From NCBI GenBank assembly GCA_007859835.1, contig SJPJ01000001.1:1869992-1929967 (forward strand): DNA of 59,976 nt. Reading direction: 5' to 3'. Position numbers and translations under genes: made by a program. The stretch comes from Novipirellula herctigrandis. GTDB taxonomy: Bacteria; Planctomycetota; Planctomycetia; Pirellulales; Pirellulaceae. Shown piece by piece: positions 12,409-57,997 of this stretch (its first letter is position 1; the number at the start of each line of letters is the position of its first letter). Below the pieces are notes generated by a model. It did not search any database, was not told the DNA's origin, and saw only the letters and a program-made list of their open reading frames with translations.

Positions 12409-12524
12409 TCGCCTAAAGGCTACACACCAGCGCTAGCCCCAAGAGCAACGTTGGTGTCCAGGCTTTAGCCGCTCAGAAGCAACTTCTCCCCAACGAAATC
12501 GCCTCAAGGCGACACACCAGCGCT
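12409..12524. repeat. Intergenic palindromic repeat (RAYT-type family), site 1
   Basis: Contains CGCCTAAAGGCTACACACCA, then GTTGGTGTCCAGGCTTTAGC, then a second, more diverged CGCCTCAAGGCGACACACCAG. The two forms are approximate reverse complements. Other sites are at 36627, 40134, 49617, 50476, 52494 and 54366. Confidence 0.8.
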
Positions 12525-36627: not shown

Positions 36628-36701
36628 TTGGTGTCCAGGCTTCAGCCGCCCGTGCATTGAAAAAATCGCAAAAGGCTACACACCAGCGCTAGCCGCCCGT
36701 G
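36627..36701. repeat. Intergenic palindromic repeat (RAYT-type family), site 2
   Basis: GTTGGTGTCCAGGCTTCAGC followed by AAAAGGCTACACACCAGCGC. It begins immediately at the stop codon of the receiver-like gene. Confidence 0.8.
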
Positions 36702-40114: not shown

Positions 40115-40133
40115 AGCTCGTCGAAAACCGATG

Positions 40134-40322
40134 CGGCCAAAGCCTGAACACCAGCGCTGCTCTTAGGAGGCTAGCGCTGGTGTCTAGCCGTTAGGCGATT
40201 TTTTCAATGCACGGACGGCTAAAGCCTGGACACCAACGTTGCGCTTGGATCACTAACGCTGGTGTCTAGCCTTTAGGCGATTTGTCAGGCGTCGGGCGGC
40301 TTAAGCCTGGACACCAGCGTCC
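40134..40322. repeat. Intergenic palindromic repeat (RAYT-type family), site 3
   Basis: A cluster of about five half-units in alternating orientation, including CTAAAGCCTGGACACCAACG and CGCTGGTGTCTAGCCTTTAG. It separates the convergent VWA and toroid genes. Confidence 0.8.
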
Positions 40323-49000: not shown

Positions 49001-49616
49001 AGCTCTCGAAGAGCTCGAAGGTTTACAGGGTCGCTATGACGAGCTTCACGGCCAATACCAAGATTTGACGGCGGCGAAGGATTCGCTGCAACGGATCATT
49101 GGTCGCATCAATGCCGATTCACGTCGTTTGTTCCTAGATACACTCGAAGCGATCCGCCAAAACTTCCAAAAGCTGTATCGCAAATCATTCGGTGGCGGAC
49201 ATGCCGATTTGATTTTGGAAGAAAACGAAGACCCGCTCGAAGCAGGCGTCGAAATTGTCGCAACGCCACCCGGGAAACCCAGTTTCAGTAACTCGTTATT
49301 ATCCGGTGGTGAGAAGGCGTTAACCGCGGTGGCGTTACTGATGTCGATTTTCCAATATCGGCCCAGTCCGTTTTGTGTGTTAGACGAAGTCGACGCCCCG
49401 TTTGACGAAGCGAACATTGGACGTTTCGTGACCGTGTTGAGCGAGTTCTTAGATCATTCCAAGTTCGTTGTCGTCACGCACAGTAAGAAAACGATGACCG
49501 CCGCCACGACCTTGTACGGTGTCACGATGCAAGAGTCAGGCGTCAGCAAGCAAGTCTCAATCCGCTTCGAAGACGTCAGCGAAGACGGAGAAATCAACGA
49601 AGGCGAAGCCGCCTAA
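46005..49616 (+). CDS. smc: Chromosome segregation protein SMC
   Basis: ABC-type ATPase that compacts and helps separate the chromosome. The start MLKALELAGFKSFADRTRF is the classical SMC N-terminus, so ATG 46005 is chosen over the open frame from 45801. Walker A is GPNGSGKS (residues ~32-39); two long coiled coils flank a hinge (~520-650, with IVADCFEVDIHVAPLIDAALGSRSQYLI). The C-terminal lobe has the signature LLSGGEKALTAVALL (~1098) and Walker B PFCVLDEVDAPFDE. Its 1203 residues are typical. The ScpA/ScpB partners are not in this window. A RAYT-type repeat begins directly at the stop codon. Confidence 0.96.
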   Translation: MLKALELAGFKSFADRTRFDFPDGITVVVGPNGSGKSNIVDAIKWVLGSQSAKSLRGKDMSDVIFKGSQTRGPANSAEASIIFDNADGSLPVDAPEVHVTRRVYRSGEAEYLINNAPVRLKDVRSLIRGTGIGIDAYSLIEQGKVDRMLQANAKDRRAIFEEAAGISRFKAKKIEAERRLARVQQNLTRLGDIVDEVASRLRSLRSQASKAERYRQATERLKELRTQIAWTDWADFSFELETTEQDLTAAVNKHAELESLREQMTEQRQAADMQLQKIADEARVIEDARSHHLQRIAELSGRREADEVATADLRSTVAKSLRRVRLLQTQAGSAAAELRNANERLAHYEVELAEVRRHSKEAEADRDKIQTEVDEVRRRRDEIQQQHLATVRTVADLEAARQRAEQQIAEVGRVLANLEKRIASAKTSLAEADKEAAVAKERVETLDLKIEQAAKEAELADAKLQESKRTLERRREEASALKVRLQGVSERLSVLQDLDRRQEGVSGGVKTILDKLRNGDDPIAHTPMAQSLCGIVADCFEVDIHVAPLIDAALGSRSQYLIISGGELQNAILSGKLQINSRVGLIRLDELPRRRPGDRIRLDGLKGVIGRGDRMIKCEPKFEPLTRHLLSSTWLVDSLATALGLRKLSGAGLRFVSASGELLETDGSVVVGPASTSTGLVSRRSQITAAEQEIKHYQFQLQEAEKESTRLAALVDDQAAELGRIEQNHRSMITDRAAAVAELRHTQERRQSFQTAHDEIDAEIVSTNQLRATSQSEFATMGTRIAEGQHKVETLEMEAAEVDEMLSGAQSALQSATSGVMSISVDVARAEQKFETLSTTMQQQKRDQGQREAAVAEVRGQAEQGRSRLSDLNLRMLEATSRLATLQWESDTNTRELARLAEAASTVRAENRQIVKASEEAIKQTSKASEAVHAITAKRDSSKLRRDTLADRLLEDYQIDLRGSEPPEDLQEPENRQAVEDEIAGLRAQLQKTTSVNMEALEELEGLQGRYDELHGQYQDLTAAKDSLQRIIGRINADSRRLFLDTLEAIRQNFQKLYRKSFGGGHADLILEENEDPLEAGVEIVATPPGKPSFSNSLLSGGEKALTAVALLMSIFQYRPSPFCVLDEVDAPFDEANIGRFVTVLSEFLDHSKFVVVTHSKKTMTAATTLYGVTMQESGVSKQVSIRFEDVSEDGEINEGEAA

Positions 49617-49768
49617 TGTTGGTGTCCAGGCTTCAGCCGCCCGTGCATTAAAAAAATCGCCTAAAGGCTACACACCAGCGCAAGCCGCCCAAGAGCAACG
49701 TTGGTGTCCAGGCTTCAGCCGCCCGTGCATTGAACAAATCGCCTAAAGCCTACACACCAGCGCTAGCA
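49617..49768. repeat. Intergenic palindromic repeat (RAYT-type family), site 4, upstream of the RAYT gene
   Basis: Two full units in tandem: GGTGTCCAGGCTTCAGCCGC ... CGCCTAAAGGCTACACACCA, then the same pair again. Both lie between smc and the RAYT gene. Confidence 0.85.
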
Positions 49769-49829
49769 TCCACTCTACCGCCGCCATAAACTGAAATACA
49801 TCGAATTCGCGATCTTCGAAGCAGAGTCC

Positions 49830-49835
49830 AGGAGG
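49830..49835 (+). promoter_or_regulatory. Strong Shine-Dalgarno site for the RAYT gene
   Basis: AGGAGG, 6 nt before GTG 49842. It is unusually good for this window and fixes the start. Confidence 0.8.
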
Positions 49836-49841
49836 CGTACA

Positions 49842-50471
49842 GTGCCGCGAGACCCCTCCCGAATGTACCGTTGGCGGAAAGTCGCGCCACAAGATCGAGT
49901 CGCGATTCTGGACGAGCGTCGCCAGCGAAATCATCCCTGCCACTCGCCCGCCCACATTGAAAGTGAAGCGACTCGTTACTACATGATCACGGCAGCCTGT
50001 TTTGAACACCGCAGTGTCATCGGTTTTTCAAACGAACGAATGGCTGACTTTTCGCTAAGGCTCTGCAGTCTACTCGGTGAAACCTGTAACGCCCTCTTCG
50101 CATGGGTCGTTTTACCGAATCACTACCATGCATTGGTAGACGACAGTTCCATCACGGGAACACTAAAAGAACTCGGCCAACTACACGGGCGCACGTCGTT
50201 TCAGTGGAATGGTGAAGAATCGTGCCGAGGGCGCCAAGTATGGTGCAATGCGGCAGAAACGGCCATGAAATCGGAAGGCCATTATTTTGCATCGCTCAAC
50301 TACGTGCTCAACAACCCCGTTCACCATCACTACAGTGAAAAGTGGGCGGATTGGCCCTTCAGTAACGCGGCTGAGTATTTGCAGTTGGTTGGTCGCGAGC
50401 GGGCATTAGAGTATTGGCGAGAGTATCCGTTATACGATTACGGAAAGAGCTGGGACCCGCCAGAGCTGTGA
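49842..50471 (+). CDS. REP-associated tyrosine transposase (RAYT, Y1_Tnp/IS200-like)
   Basis: 209-residue single-stranded DNA nuclease of the Y1 HUH family. The metal-binding HUH motif is HYH in WVVLPNHYHALVDD, and the catalytic Tyr is probably in FASLNYVLNNPVHH, matching the RAYT Y..NP segment. The closing WADWPFSNAAEYL fits the family W.SS-type box. RAYTs cut at palindromic repeats and are thought to have spread REP sequences; here members of one repeat family flank the gene on both sides (49617-49768, 50476-50582). It has no terminal inverted repeats and appears immobile. GTG start with AGGAGG at 49830-49835. Confidence 0.88.
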   Translation: MPRDPSRMYRWRKVAPQDRVAILDERRQRNHPCHSPAHIESEATRYYMITAACFEHRSVIGFSNERMADFSLRLCSLLGETCNALFAWVVLPNHYHALVDDSSITGTLKELGQLHGRTSFQWNGEESCRGRQVWCNAAETAMKSEGHYFASLNYVLNNPVHHHYSEKWADWPFSNAAEYLQLVGRERALEYWREYPLYDYGKSWDPPEL

Positions 50472-50475
50472 CAGG

Positions 50476-50582
50476 ACAAGAGCAACGTTGGTGTCCAAGC
50501 TTTAGCCGCTCAAGAGCAATCCGACCAAGGTCAACCAAATCGCCTAAAGGCTACACACCAGCGCTAGTGTCCAGGCTTTGCA
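50476..50582. repeat. Intergenic palindromic repeat (RAYT-type family), site 5, downstream of the RAYT gene
   Basis: GTTGGTGTCCAAGCTTTAGC and, after about 35 bp, CGCCTAAAGGCTACACACCA, then a partial unit ending near 50582. Confidence 0.85.
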
Positions 50583-52406: not shown

Positions 52407-52493
52407 TTGGGTTCTCGCGAGCGTATCCAAGTAGAGCAAAAGCTGGCCCAAGGATACACGTTGGGGCAAAGAAAGAAGAGGGTTCGTGATTAA

Positions 52494-52632
52494 GCGCTGG
52501 TGTGCAGGCTTTAGCCGCCTGGGTATTGGCAAAAGACCGACGCCTGCGATCGCCTAAAGGCTAGACACCAGCGCTGGTGTGCAGGCTTTAGCCGCCTGGA
52601 TATTGGAAAGTCCGACGCCTGCGATCGCCTAA
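52494..52632. repeat. Intergenic palindromic repeat (RAYT-type family), site 6, cut by the IS1380 insertion
   Basis: GCGCTGGTGTGCAGGCTTTA ... GATCGCCTAAAGGCTAGACACC, then a second unit that stops at GCGATCGCCTAA where the IS begins. The missing part continues at 54366. Confidence 0.9.
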
Positions 52633-54365
52633 CCCGAACATTGCATCCGCGGATTCAGCTTGCCCACTAGCGCGAAAGCCTTAGTCCTGATAGTCATTGG
52701 AGTTACCACACCTCAATTTCCACAGGCCCAAGGCTTTCTGCAATGACAGATCGTAAACGAAAACGTCCTGCTCTGAAACGCCTACGTCGGCAAGCTGTTG
52801 ATGCTGACTTCGACGGTGGAACGCTCACCTCCGATGGCGGCTTGGTGCTCCTTCGCGAAGTTGATCGGCGGCTCGATCTGATCCGAAGGGTCGATCAAGC
52901 CATCCCCGATCCGCGTGATCCGATCTACACCGCGCATCAGCAAGACGAGATCCTCATCAGCCGAATCTTCGGCATCGCCGCCGGTTACCAAGACGCCAAC
53001 GATCACGACGCCTTGCGGCACGATCCCGCTTTTCAAGTGGCTGCCGGAAGGACGCCAGCAGAAAACGATTACAGCGAAGGCGCCTATCCGCTTGCCAGTC
53101 CCTCGACGCACTGCCGGTTTGAAAACCGAATCGACTCCAAGGCCATCTTCAAGCTTCACGAAGTCCTCGTCGATACCTTCCTGGATAGCTTCGACGAGCC
53201 GCCTGAAGAAATCATCCTGGACTACGACGCGACCGATGACACCGTCCATGGCAACCAAGAGCGTCGGTTCTTCAACGGTTACTACGACAGCTACTGCTTC
53301 CTTCCGCTTTACGTTTTCTGCGGCGATCAGATTTTGGTTTCGTATCTGCGGCCCAGTAGTGTCGGAGCGGCTCATCATGCTCGGCCGGTTACCAAGTTAC
53401 TGGTCCAGAAGATTCGTTCGCGTTGGCCTGACGTGAAGATCATCCTTCGCGGCGACGGCGGCTATGCAGACGAACCGCTGATGCGATGGTGCGACAAGAA
53501 CGATGTCGGCTACATCTTCGGCTTACCCAAAAACAAGGTTTTGGTGCGGGAAATCGCTTGCGAAATGACTCGGGCGAGGATTCAGCAATCGTATCTCGGT
53601 GGCAAGCGAGCGTGCTTCAAATGGTTTCGCTATCGAACGTCCAGGACTTGGGATCGTCATCGCTGGGTTGTCGGCAAGGCACAGTACACCGGCAAGGGAG
53701 CCAACCCGCGTTTCGTGGTCACCAACCTGCCCAGCGACGCGGGCATTGTTGATACGACAAGGCACCGGCCGATGGTCGACGGCAAGCGACAACCTTGGGA
53801 AGTCAAGGAAGCCGGGACACAGTGTAGCGTCGCTTGGAATCCGGAAGACTTCTATCGCACGATGTACTGCATGCGTGGTGAGATGGAGAACCGGATCAAG
53901 GAACAGCAGTTGTGTCTGTTCGCCGACCGAACCAGTTGCACGCGATTCATGGCGAATCAATTTCGACTGATGCTCTCATCGCTGGCCTATGTGTTGGTTG
54001 ATGGCCTGAGGCGACTGGCACTTTCGGGCACCGAGCATTCACGCCTGCGTGTGGACAGCATTCGCCTGCGACTGTTGAAGATTGCCGCTCGGGTCCAAGT
54101 GACTTCTCGCCGGGTGGTGTTTCATCTTTGCAGCCATTGTCCATCGGCGGCGCTATGGGACGACGTGATGCTGCGACTTTGCCGTAGCGATTAGCCTTGC
54201 CCATCGCCAGAGATAATTCGCAACCCGCGAGCCGATGGTCAACGTGGGGGAAGGGGGAACTCCGCGCCGCCAACAAAAAAGACGATCAAATCGATGCTCC
54301 AAAGTGGCCCATGCCATCCCAGCTAAACTCAAAAGCGTCTACCACAGGCGGATGCAATGTTCGGG
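52633..54365 (+). mobile_element. Complete IS1380-type insertion sequence, 1733 bp
   Basis: Bounded by perfect 18-bp terminal inverted repeats: CCCGAACATTGCATCCGC at 52633-52650 and its reverse complement at 54348-54365. A 4-bp target duplication CTAA flanks it (52629-52632 and 54366-54369), the size usual for IS1380. One transposase gene fills it. Removal of the element plus one CTAA rejoins GCGATCGCCTAA with AGGCTAGACACC, the intact repeat seen elsewhere. Confidence 0.93.
52743..54194 (+). CDS. IS1380 family transposase
   Basis: DDE transposase of 483 residues. Family features are DADFDGGTLTSDGGLVLLREVD near the start, the first catalytic Asp in ILDYDATDDTVHGNQ, a second in ILRGDGGYAD and a C-terminal Glu region around RTMYCMRGEMENRIKEQQL, the E(N)RIKE-type motif of IS1380/IS4-like enzymes. 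Start ATG 52743 lies inside the element. The frame is intact from left to right end, so the copy may be active. A reverse shadow frame (52782-53378) is not a gene. Confidence 0.94.
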   Translation: MTDRKRKRPALKRLRRQAVDADFDGGTLTSDGGLVLLREVDRRLDLIRRVDQAIPDPRDPIYTAHQQDEILISRIFGIAAGYQDANDHDALRHDPAFQVAAGRTPAENDYSEGAYPLASPSTHCRFENRIDSKAIFKLHEVLVDTFLDSFDEPPEEIILDYDATDDTVHGNQERRFFNGYYDSYCFLPLYVFCGDQILVSYLRPSSVGAAHHARPVTKLLVQKIRSRWPDVKIILRGDGGYADEPLMRWCDKNDVGYIFGLPKNKVLVREIACEMTRARIQQSYLGGKRACFKWFRYRTSRTWDRHRWVVGKAQYTGKGANPRFVVTNLPSDAGIVDTTRHRPMVDGKRQPWEVKEAGTQCSVAWNPEDFYRTMYCMRGEMENRIKEQQLCLFADRTSCTRFMANQFRLMLSSLAYVLVDGLRRLALSGTEHSRLRVDSIRLRLLKIAARVQVTSRRVVFHLCSHCPSAALWDDVMLRLCRSD

Positions 54366-54420
54366 CTAAAGGCTAGACACCAGCGTTGGGGTGCAGGCTT
54401 AAGCCGCTTCGTCTATTGAA
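54366..54420. repeat. Intergenic palindromic repeat (RAYT-type family), site 7, right part of the interrupted copy
   Basis: Starts at the target duplication CTAA and reads CTAAAGGCTAGACACCAGCG, then GGGTGCAGGCTTAAGCCG. It continues the copy that ends at 52632. Confidence 0.9.
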
Positions 54421-56326: not shown

Positions 56327-57997
56327 CTACTCTTTCTCCCCCCCAAACGCATGCATCACGGCCATTTGAAACAATTCGTGATTATCCCGGATTTGGCCTC
56401 GTGACAATTTCACTGGCGTTTCATCGAGCAGTTGGACCTGGATCACTCCACCACCATAGGATTGCTTTTCACCAATTGCCCAACGCATTCGGTTGATAAG
56501 ATGGATCCACGCATCGCCAAAGTGAGGCGGTGGTGCGACACAATCCCCACGGGGGTCGAGACAGGCGAACAACACCTCGGCTCGTTCCAGCGGCGGTCGT
56601 TCGAGTGACAAGTCGGCCGCCACGAAATTCTCATTTCCATCAAAAGGGTAAGGCGATCGGTTGCTGACCTGCCACCCAACCCCGGAATAACACATCGCTA
56701 AATCATGCCAATCGTTGTAAGGACCATCGACGCTCAATAGTACCGCCCGCGAACCGTTACTGTATTGCCAAATGAAGCTCTTCATGCCACCGAAAATCGA
56801 TTCCTCAGTCTTCTCATTGACGATGAAATTCGTACGAGTCCATCCAGCGATTTCGGCCGGAAAAAACGATTCGTCGACCGTATCAAAATCGATGGCCGAG
56901 TTTTGAGCCAATTCCACCATCGATGCCTGAGCCAGTGACAATCGCGAAAACTTTGAAAAGGCCGCCACACCGCCTAGACCAAAGACAACCAATACGCCCG
57001 CCACGATCACCGCCGCGCGAGGCGATACCGCCGAATCCAAAAAGCCAATGGGTGAACCATTGACTTCGGACGGGGACGCCGGCGATTCATCGTCGGAAAT
57101 ACCGGTTCCCGGTAACAAATATCGCCAAAAATGATCACTGCTAGTCGCCATCAAGACGCCCGTCGCAAACGTCACCATCCCCAACAGGTCGTGTCGTAAA
57201 CCAGTCGACAAATCAATCCCGTAACGCGATTGGGCGTAGACCACTACAAAAACACGGATCGCATTGGCGATCACCACCCAAAAGACCATTTGTACTACCA
57301 ACGCCAAAATTCGCCACACGCGATAATTTCGCAGCACGCTGTAACCCACGCCGACCGCGATCGCGGCAAACATCGAATGAATCCCACTACACGCATCAGC
57401 CACTGCAAAGTTATTCTCAGGAGTGCGAATTTCAACGCCCGTTGAAAGATGCAGTATTCCCATTAAGTCCAACCATAAGCTGGCCAACCAAGTCGCCAAT
57501 TGCTGCATCTCGACCACGAACCAGCTGTCCATCAAGACCGGCAGTGGGATACAGGCAACCAATAATACCAATGGCCCGCGCAGCCGCCACGTCATTTCGC
57601 GGCCACCCCACAATGTCAGTGCCGCCATCACCGTCGCCACCGTCGCGGGAGCCGCCATCCATCGACTCGGCAAAACATACGTTCCCACAGCGAACCCGGA
57701 AGCGATCAGCGTCCATAATAGGACTCGCGGTGAAACGACCATTTGTCGCGTTGTCGGCTCTTGCCGATAACGGTAAACGCCCAAGATAAAGGCGAATAGC
57801 GCCATCAACGGTACATGTTCGTAATAGTCGCGCGATGACATCCATACGCCCAACTTCGCGACGGGCATCACCAAGGCAACGCCGAGTACCAGCAAAACGA
57901 CCGCGATCACATTCGCCGATCGTGAACCGGGCGGCGCATTGTTGCTTGCAACATCCACAGTGGTTGGGATATCGTCAATTGCAACGGATTTGGGCAT
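56327..57997 (-). CDS. xrtU: Exosortase U with EpsI-like C-terminal domain
   Basis: Membrane transpeptidase-like enzyme expected to process PEP-CTERM proteins. 556 residues. Several helices carry the exosortase triad: Cys in VADACSGIHSMFAAIAVG (~203), Arg in VIANAIRVFVVVY (~247) and His in GLRHDLLGMVTF (~269). After residue ~330 a last helix leads to a periplasmic EpsI/DUF3485-like domain (FFPAEIAGWTRTNF, DWHDLAMCYSGVGWQV). The fused layout and planctomycete setting suggest type U; the subtype is inferred. A PEP-CTERM protein gene lies 1.1 kb upstream on the same strand. ATG 57997. Confidence 0.9.
   Translation of the reverse strand: MPKSVAIDDIPTTVDVASNNAPPGSRSANVIAVVLLVLGVALVMPVAKLGVWMSSRDYYEHVPLMALFAFILGVYRYRQEPTTRQMVVSPRVLLWTLIASGFAVGTYVLPSRWMAAPATVATVMAALTLWGGREMTWRLRGPLVLLVACIPLPVLMDSWFVVEMQQLATWLASLWLDLMGILHLSTGVEIRTPENNFAVADACSGIHSMFAAIAVGVGYSVLRNYRVWRILALVVQMVFWVVIANAIRVFVVVYAQSRYGIDLSTGLRHDLLGMVTFATGVLMATSSDHFWRYLLPGTGISDDESPASPSEVNGSPIGFLDSAVSPRAAVIVAGVLVVFGLGGVAAFSKFSRLSLAQASMVELAQNSAIDFDTVDESFFPAEIAGWTRTNFIVNEKTEESIFGGMKSFIWQYSNGSRAVLLSVDGPYNDWHDLAMCYSGVGWQVSNRSPYPFDGNENFVAADLSLERPPLERAEVLFACLDPRGDCVAPPPHFGDAWIHLINRMRWAIGEKQSYGGGVIQVQLLDETPVKLSRGQIRDNHELFQMAVMHAFGGEKE

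Follow-up and report, generated by a model that had tools for sequence, protein, structure and literature searches.

Positions 52633-54365 of the window, the whole stretch of 59,976 nucleotides analysed here from the genome of Novipirellula herctigrandis, hold an insertion sequence lying inside a palindromic repeat. This raises the question of whether one element happened to land in a repeat, or whether elements of its group use such repeats as landing sites.

An IS1380-family element inside a palindromic repeat

The insertion sequence is 1733 bp long and lies on the plus strand. End comparison placed its left terminal inverted repeat, CCCGAACATTGCATCCGC, at 52633-52650 (plus strand) and its right one at 54348-54365 (minus strand), and the two ends, CCCGAACATTGCATCCGC and GCGGATGCAATGTTCGGG, are exact reverse complements across 18 bp. 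The target-site duplication CTAA was read from the sequence on the left (52629-52632) and on the right (54366-54369). A DDE transposase of 483 aa is encoded on the plus strand at 52743-54194, and in profile scans it scored 385 bits against NF033539 (IS1380, cut-off 180) and 492 bits against PF13701 (cut-off 34.7). The element has the features of the IS1380 family, namely an IS1380-type transposase, terminal inverted repeats and a 4-bp target duplication; target duplications in this family are 4-5 bp. Such an arrangement is not due to chance, because the entire 1733 bp recurs identically twice elsewhere in the genome, each time with its own 4-bp duplication. The three identical copies suggest that the element may have moved recently. 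The perfect 18-bp ends, the CTAA on both sides and the intact transposase described in the initial annotation were borne out to the base. No Rfam RNA was found at the gathering threshold between 52400 and 54500. Further along the window, an ORF of 556 aa (56327-57997) gave the impression, from its sequence, of an exosortase-type membrane protein.

The repeat unit consists of inverted arms, A (GGTGTGCAGGCTTTAGCCGC) and B (GGTGTCTAGCCTTTAGGCGA, inverted), around a spacer, with a unit spacing of 77 bp. The intact neighbouring unit (52493-52575, plus strand) is composed of the arm GGTGTGCAGGCTTTAGCCGC, the spacer and the inverted arm CGCCTAAAGGCTAGACACC. Arm B of the second unit is the arm split by the element, and the left and right parts of this interrupted unit lie at 52570-52632 and 54370-54386 (AGGCTAGACACCAGCGT), respectively, both on the plus strand. 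A degenerate extra A-type arm with 2 mismatches is located beyond the element (54388-54407, plus strand). Joining 52632 to 54370 gives GCGATCGCCTAAAGGCTAGA, the sole uninterrupted copy of which in the window is at 52546, 75 bp ahead of the restored one. The joined flanks had been called identical to the intact upstream unit, and the junction 20-mer indeed matches this neighbour. It was likewise supported that the element entered, to the base, a repeat unit that was already there: joining the flanks restores a palindromic-repeat unit, and the nesting makes the repeat older than this insertion at this spot.

The nearest other arms, with up to 4 mismatches of 20, were located at 49308, 49621, 49657, 49703, 49739, 50490 and 50540 (49308-50559), a tandem array of arms at 40133-40315 and a further copy of the arms at 12409-12518. 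A repeat position was also noted at 36630. The repeat is scarce in this genome, with 43 weak-to-strong arm matches at E <= 10 and 17 exact ones. It is also strongly clustered, since 11 of the exact arms surround the window within C1:1.88-1.964 Mb; the repeat may have spread locally, or the region may have come from a repeat-rich relative. The exact arm pattern was present in 19 of 199 family genomes with copy numbers up to 176, among them one genome (G147) that has no element match at E <= 1e-60. The repeat is a short extragenic palindrome with many copies, and its mostly extragenic position, its palindromic form and its tandem arrays in places lead us to regard it as REP-like. Its arms carry YTAG at the position where the element landed.

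The initial annotation had assigned the repeat to the RAYT family. This label fails because the defining feature, a repeat flanking a Y1_Tnp gene, was not found: when searched with five arm consensuses, flanks of 1.5 kb were free of arms at all 12 Y1_Tnp loci of this genome, and in four relatives an arm was present at 1 of 30 loci (30 of 54 matches listed), which is about background density. An association with RAYT genes was rejected on these counts. Of the 12 loci, 3 were inspected, and the one with the best Y1_Tnp match (L012, C1:2355545-2355889) adjoins hairpins of a different type, GTCCCGAAGGGAC. The hairpins near this gene were also recorded as of the AGTCCCGAAGGGACGGCA type, and these are perhaps the real RAYT repeats of this genome.

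Insertion sites in this genome and in its relatives

The three identical copies in this genome, counted without the relics L004 and L005, are flanked by CTAA in the repeat, by CTAA on contig C2 and by CTAG near 8.23 Mb, the latter two sites lying within ORFs. The copy on C2 (L001, C2:176229-177961) interrupts its ORF, and the two ORF flanks resemble each other; therefore, the site seems to be a coding tandem repeat. The expectation that several IS1380 copies in this genome target repeats was not shown to hold, as one of three copies is in a repeat and the flanks of the other two are unrelated to it. On this count, repeat targeting was rejected as an established fact for this genome.

A search by contig returned 16 element loci, 11 of which belong to Planctomycetes bacterium TBK1r (G199). 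Across 199 family genomes, matches at E <= 1e-60 were found in 14, this genome included, and G178, G137 and G028 carry several copies each. The transposases of these four relative hosts are 74-76% identical to that of the window. The search with the inverted-end pattern covered 7 of the 13 relatives with matches. Each site was counted once (L074 and L076 were dropped as the same sites as L055 and L067), and partial copies (L068, L069, L077-L083, L088, L101 and L119) and the MITE loci L117 and L118 were left out. The site table agreed with a PF01609 census for TBK1r (13 copies in both), and for G028 it holds 11 copies where the census lists 10. Among 52 distinct element-flank pairs, 51 have an exact 4-bp duplication, which is always CTAA, TTAG or CTAG; the exception to this CTAR rule is the OFTM161 copy.

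Copies inside repeat arms numbered 13/13 in TBK1r, 10/12 in G137, 7/11 in G028 and 6/9 in G178, which amounts to 36 of 45 in the four relatives. The single copy of UBA6163 is also in an arm, two other single sites are outside arms, and for all hosts together 38 of 51 sites are inside arms. The non-repeat counts include L102, where the element is the latter of a tandem pair in G178, and L100, whose copy entered an arm at a different CTAG. As a group, these elements do prefer the repeats, though not without exception, and the idea of the repeat as a landing site, which the unrelated flanks in this genome speak against, found its support in the relatives. In L102 (G178:C1:8620511-8623988), two elements lie head to tail and have only one TTAG in common, which looks like reuse of the duplicated target.

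The arms differ by host. TBK1r and G178 have A and B, the arms of G137 are GCCTCAGGCGCTAGCCGTGGGC and GCCGATGGCGCTAGCCACGGGC, and that of G028 is AGCCGCAGGGCGCTAGCCCACGGTTC; a core of approximately GGCNYTAGCC (in B, GCCTTTAGGC) is common to them. Arms of differing sequence were entered at the same relative position in different hosts, and with two arm types counted, all 13 copies of TBK1r are at the YTAG of an arm. Miniature elements of ~175 bp with IS1380-like ends (CCCGGATATTGCATCAGC) adjoin the CTAG of repeats at two loci of G137 (L117 and L118).

Control CTAR sites were taken from 20 samples of 20 kb per genome (400 kb) with crude ORF calls; one of the 20 samples of our own genome (L184) overlaps the window. 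Control sites in arms numbered 11/523, 3/543, 24/877 and 11/872 (0.6-2.7%) in TBK1r, G178, G137 and G028, respectively, and the Fisher p values for the insertions in these four relatives ranged from 6e-20 to 2e-10, although some copies (a pair in L061 and a pair in L062) may go back to a common ancestor through duplication of arrays and do not count as independent. When only intergenic sites were considered, insertions compared with controls gave 11/11 vs 10/155 in TBK1r, 5/7 vs 2/168 in G178, 8/9 vs 23/312 in G137 and 7/9 vs 4/203 in G028 (p 8e-12 to 3e-7). In this genome, 40 of 1705 control sites were in arms and the excess was not significant (p 0.07), with intergenic counts of 1/1 vs 26/410.

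The in-arm counts lean toward insertion sites because the arm consensuses were drawn from those sites. A model-free count was made for this reason and is the sole measure free of that lean; a site was scored as repetitive when its 28-mer recurs at least 3 times in the sample. By this measure, 10/13 insertions vs 14/300 CTAA sites were repetitive in TBK1r, 10/12 vs 33/291 CTAG sites in G137 and 5/11 vs 7/274 CTAG sites in G028, and control CTAR sites were repetitive at 3-13%. G178 showed no excess by the model-free measure (1/9), probably owing to the rarity of arms in its sample, and in our own genome 0/3 copies were at repetitive sites. Controls matched for a hexamer kept the bias, with 9/9 vs 22/55 for GCTAGC in G137 and 13/13 vs 10/34 for CTTTAG in TBK1r. 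Taken together, the data show the insertion itself, the rule of CTAR at the target and, with CTAR and intergenic position controlled for, an excess of copies in the repeats of four relatives.

Empty sites were compared at three loci. An empty site for the window's own locus was rejected, as the flanking TPR gene has no close orthologue in two same-genus genomes, with matches of just 25-33%. For one TBK1r copy (L057), the orthologous spacer in G184 and G190 contains the repeat arm but lacks the element, and G178 has a diverged, interrupted form of this spacer, also with the arm and without the element; the target tetranucleotide differs among these empty sites. For another TBK1r copy (L065), which could be aligned in 4 of 9 relatives, both repeat and element are missing from G190, which shows that the repeat itself is gained and lost; the spacers of G178, G147 and G171 are different ones and also lack the element. 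The initial annotation had pointed to such comparisons as a check on insertion into a repeat, and the first TBK1r site agreed with it and the second did not. Arms without the element at the L057 orthologues, together with the arms in G147, where the element search gave no match at E <= 1e-60, show that the repeats exist independently of the insertion sequence and predate the insertions nested in them.

Explanations for the choice of repeat arms

In the proposed mechanism, an IS1380-family DDE element would have cut the CTAA of one intergenic repeat arm with a 4-bp stagger and inserted there. For cutting, transposases of this group would need CTAR, which reads YTAG on the opposite strand, and they would strongly prefer CTAR inside the arms of the host's REP-like repeats (core approximately GGCNYTAGCC or GCCTTTAGGC). 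The arms would be mostly harmless landing sites because they lie between genes. From the genome comparisons, we assign a probability of roughly 0.8 to this reading of a CTAR cut with a strong preference for repeat arms as the landing sites of this IS1380 group, and we infer that the transposase itself does the choosing of the arms.

The transposase may do so by reading about 8-10 bp (GGCNYTAGCC-like) nearly confined to repeats, the structure being irrelevant, a variant to which we give even odds. At a context of 9-10 bp, 18/18 sampled matches in G137 and 9/10 in TBK1r were in arms, which favours this variant, and motif and repeat are inseparable at this length because nearly all sampled matches sit in arms. 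Half-arm sites that do not form a good hairpin (L090, L093 and L099) were also used, as expected if sequence is read. However, the core was matched no better by the 13 non-repeat sites than by random CTAR sites (p 0.16), and therefore it is not required.

It is also conceivable, in our tentative estimate, that the transposase is drawn to YTAG-containing hairpin or cruciform DNA and not to the arm sequence as such. This would fit the entry of sequence-different arms at the same relative position in different hosts, and the repeat sites (n=36) do fold well, with a median at the 5th percentile of controls. Sites outside repeats leaned weakly in the same direction (p 0.09, n=10), but this lean was not significant, and several half-arms that were entered fold poorly. 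An IS4-family element and a 141-bp MITE in palindrome centres are in line with attraction to hairpins. The IS4-family element, from TBK1r (NF033592; L296-L305), occupies the centres of GGC-N4-GCC palindromes at 8/8 sites with clean duplications, the N4 being the duplication. For this count, 11 copies of the 17 listed were retrieved; one is truncated at an end, and in L299, which also contains a false pairing in one row, two have flanks common to L298 and L301. Two of the sites resemble a D-type arm of G137 and none is near A/B arms. The 141-bp MITE, with ends GCCCAATACCGC similar to those of the IS4-family element, was found in G184, G190 and G147 (L345, L348-L364). It enters arm A, or the complement of that arm, at GGC-N4-GCC; the 19 loci scanned gave 16 placements, of which 13 show an exact duplication and 14 the GGC-N4-GCC pattern, and these copies are not all independent. 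A second IS4-type element of TBK1r (L273, L277, L281 and L285) was beside hairpins of a third kind, the CCTCC..GGAGG type, at 3 of 4 copies.

A broader and somewhat doubtful possibility is that one transposase group recognises shape, each host's own repeats (the arms of TBK1r, G137 and G028) being entered at the same YTAG. Elements of the IS1380 and IS4 families, along with their MITEs, might then share the intergenic repeats as safe landing pads, each following a local rule of its own (YTAG vs GGC-N4-GCC).

Survivor bias, with insertion at any CTAR and persistence only in neutral intergenic repeats, would suit arms that are mostly intergenic, and the two copies of our own genome in ORFs mean that gene insertions occur and may later be lost, but it is improbable because the excess stays large among intergenic sites alone in all four relatives and because 0 of 28 copies of four control element types in TBK1r were near A/B arms. 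The control copies comprised 10 of a 403-aa type (of 17 listed), 4 of a 406-aa type (of 5), 10 loci of an IS4-type element (468 aa) and 4 of a second IS4-type element (468 aa, of 9). The first IS4-type element had been chosen as a negative control but proved to target palindromes, as described above. The ISAs1-type copies among them, for which only A/B arms were checked, gave 0/14; the 406-aa protein scans as ISAs1, and the 403-aa type was grouped by common ends.

Comparison with known systems

The IS1380 family has members, ISEcp1 among them, by which neighbouring genes are moved, and target choice within the family is thus of practical interest. The window's element resembles known IS1380 members such as IS1247 in its NF033539 and PF13701 DDE transposase, its single ORF, its short inverted ends and short target duplication, and its length of ~1.7 kb. 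IS1247 is described with 1672 bp and a 5-bp duplication (PMC3281130). The group of the window differs from it in the CTAR-specific 4-bp duplication and in the targeting of repeats.

The repeats share with REP/BIME and RAYT systems, for which PMC3733652 describes GTAG repeats and reports them also in R. baltica, the features of being intergenic, palindromic, multi-copy and in tandem or paired units. The two differ in that a Y1 (RAYT-like) gene adjoins the arms at 0/12 of our own loci and 1/30 of the relatives' loci examined.

The phenomenon itself is familiar. REP-targeting insertion sequences listed in the consulted portion of PMC1525189 include ISPsy8, ISPa11, ISPpu9/10, ISRm22, ISRm19, IS1397, ISKpn1 and IS621, and that portion names the IS3, IS110, IS4, IS256 and IS5 families and not IS1380. 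No open-access paper linking IS1380 to such repeats was found by title or the start of the abstract, a limited search that tests absence weakly; as far as these sources go, IS1380 is an added family among repeat-targeting insertion sequences, with no earlier report found. In 'type 1' elements as characterised in that part of PMC1525189, 100% of copies are in the repeat at the same position, compared with 1/3 in our own genome, and the joined flanks restore the full repeat, which was also found for the window copy and, against the arm consensuses, for the TBK1r sites. The likeness to the elements described there extends to the use of one position in the repeat, the restoration of the repeat on joining the flanks and, often, clusters of repeats; the differences are that the element here is an IS1380, that the hosts are Planctomycetes and that targeting is incomplete in some hosts. 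The counts and controls from the four relatives would place IS1380 among the families of insertion sequences that target extragenic palindromes, and the four hosts with their different repeats provide a natural test of sequence versus shape recognition.
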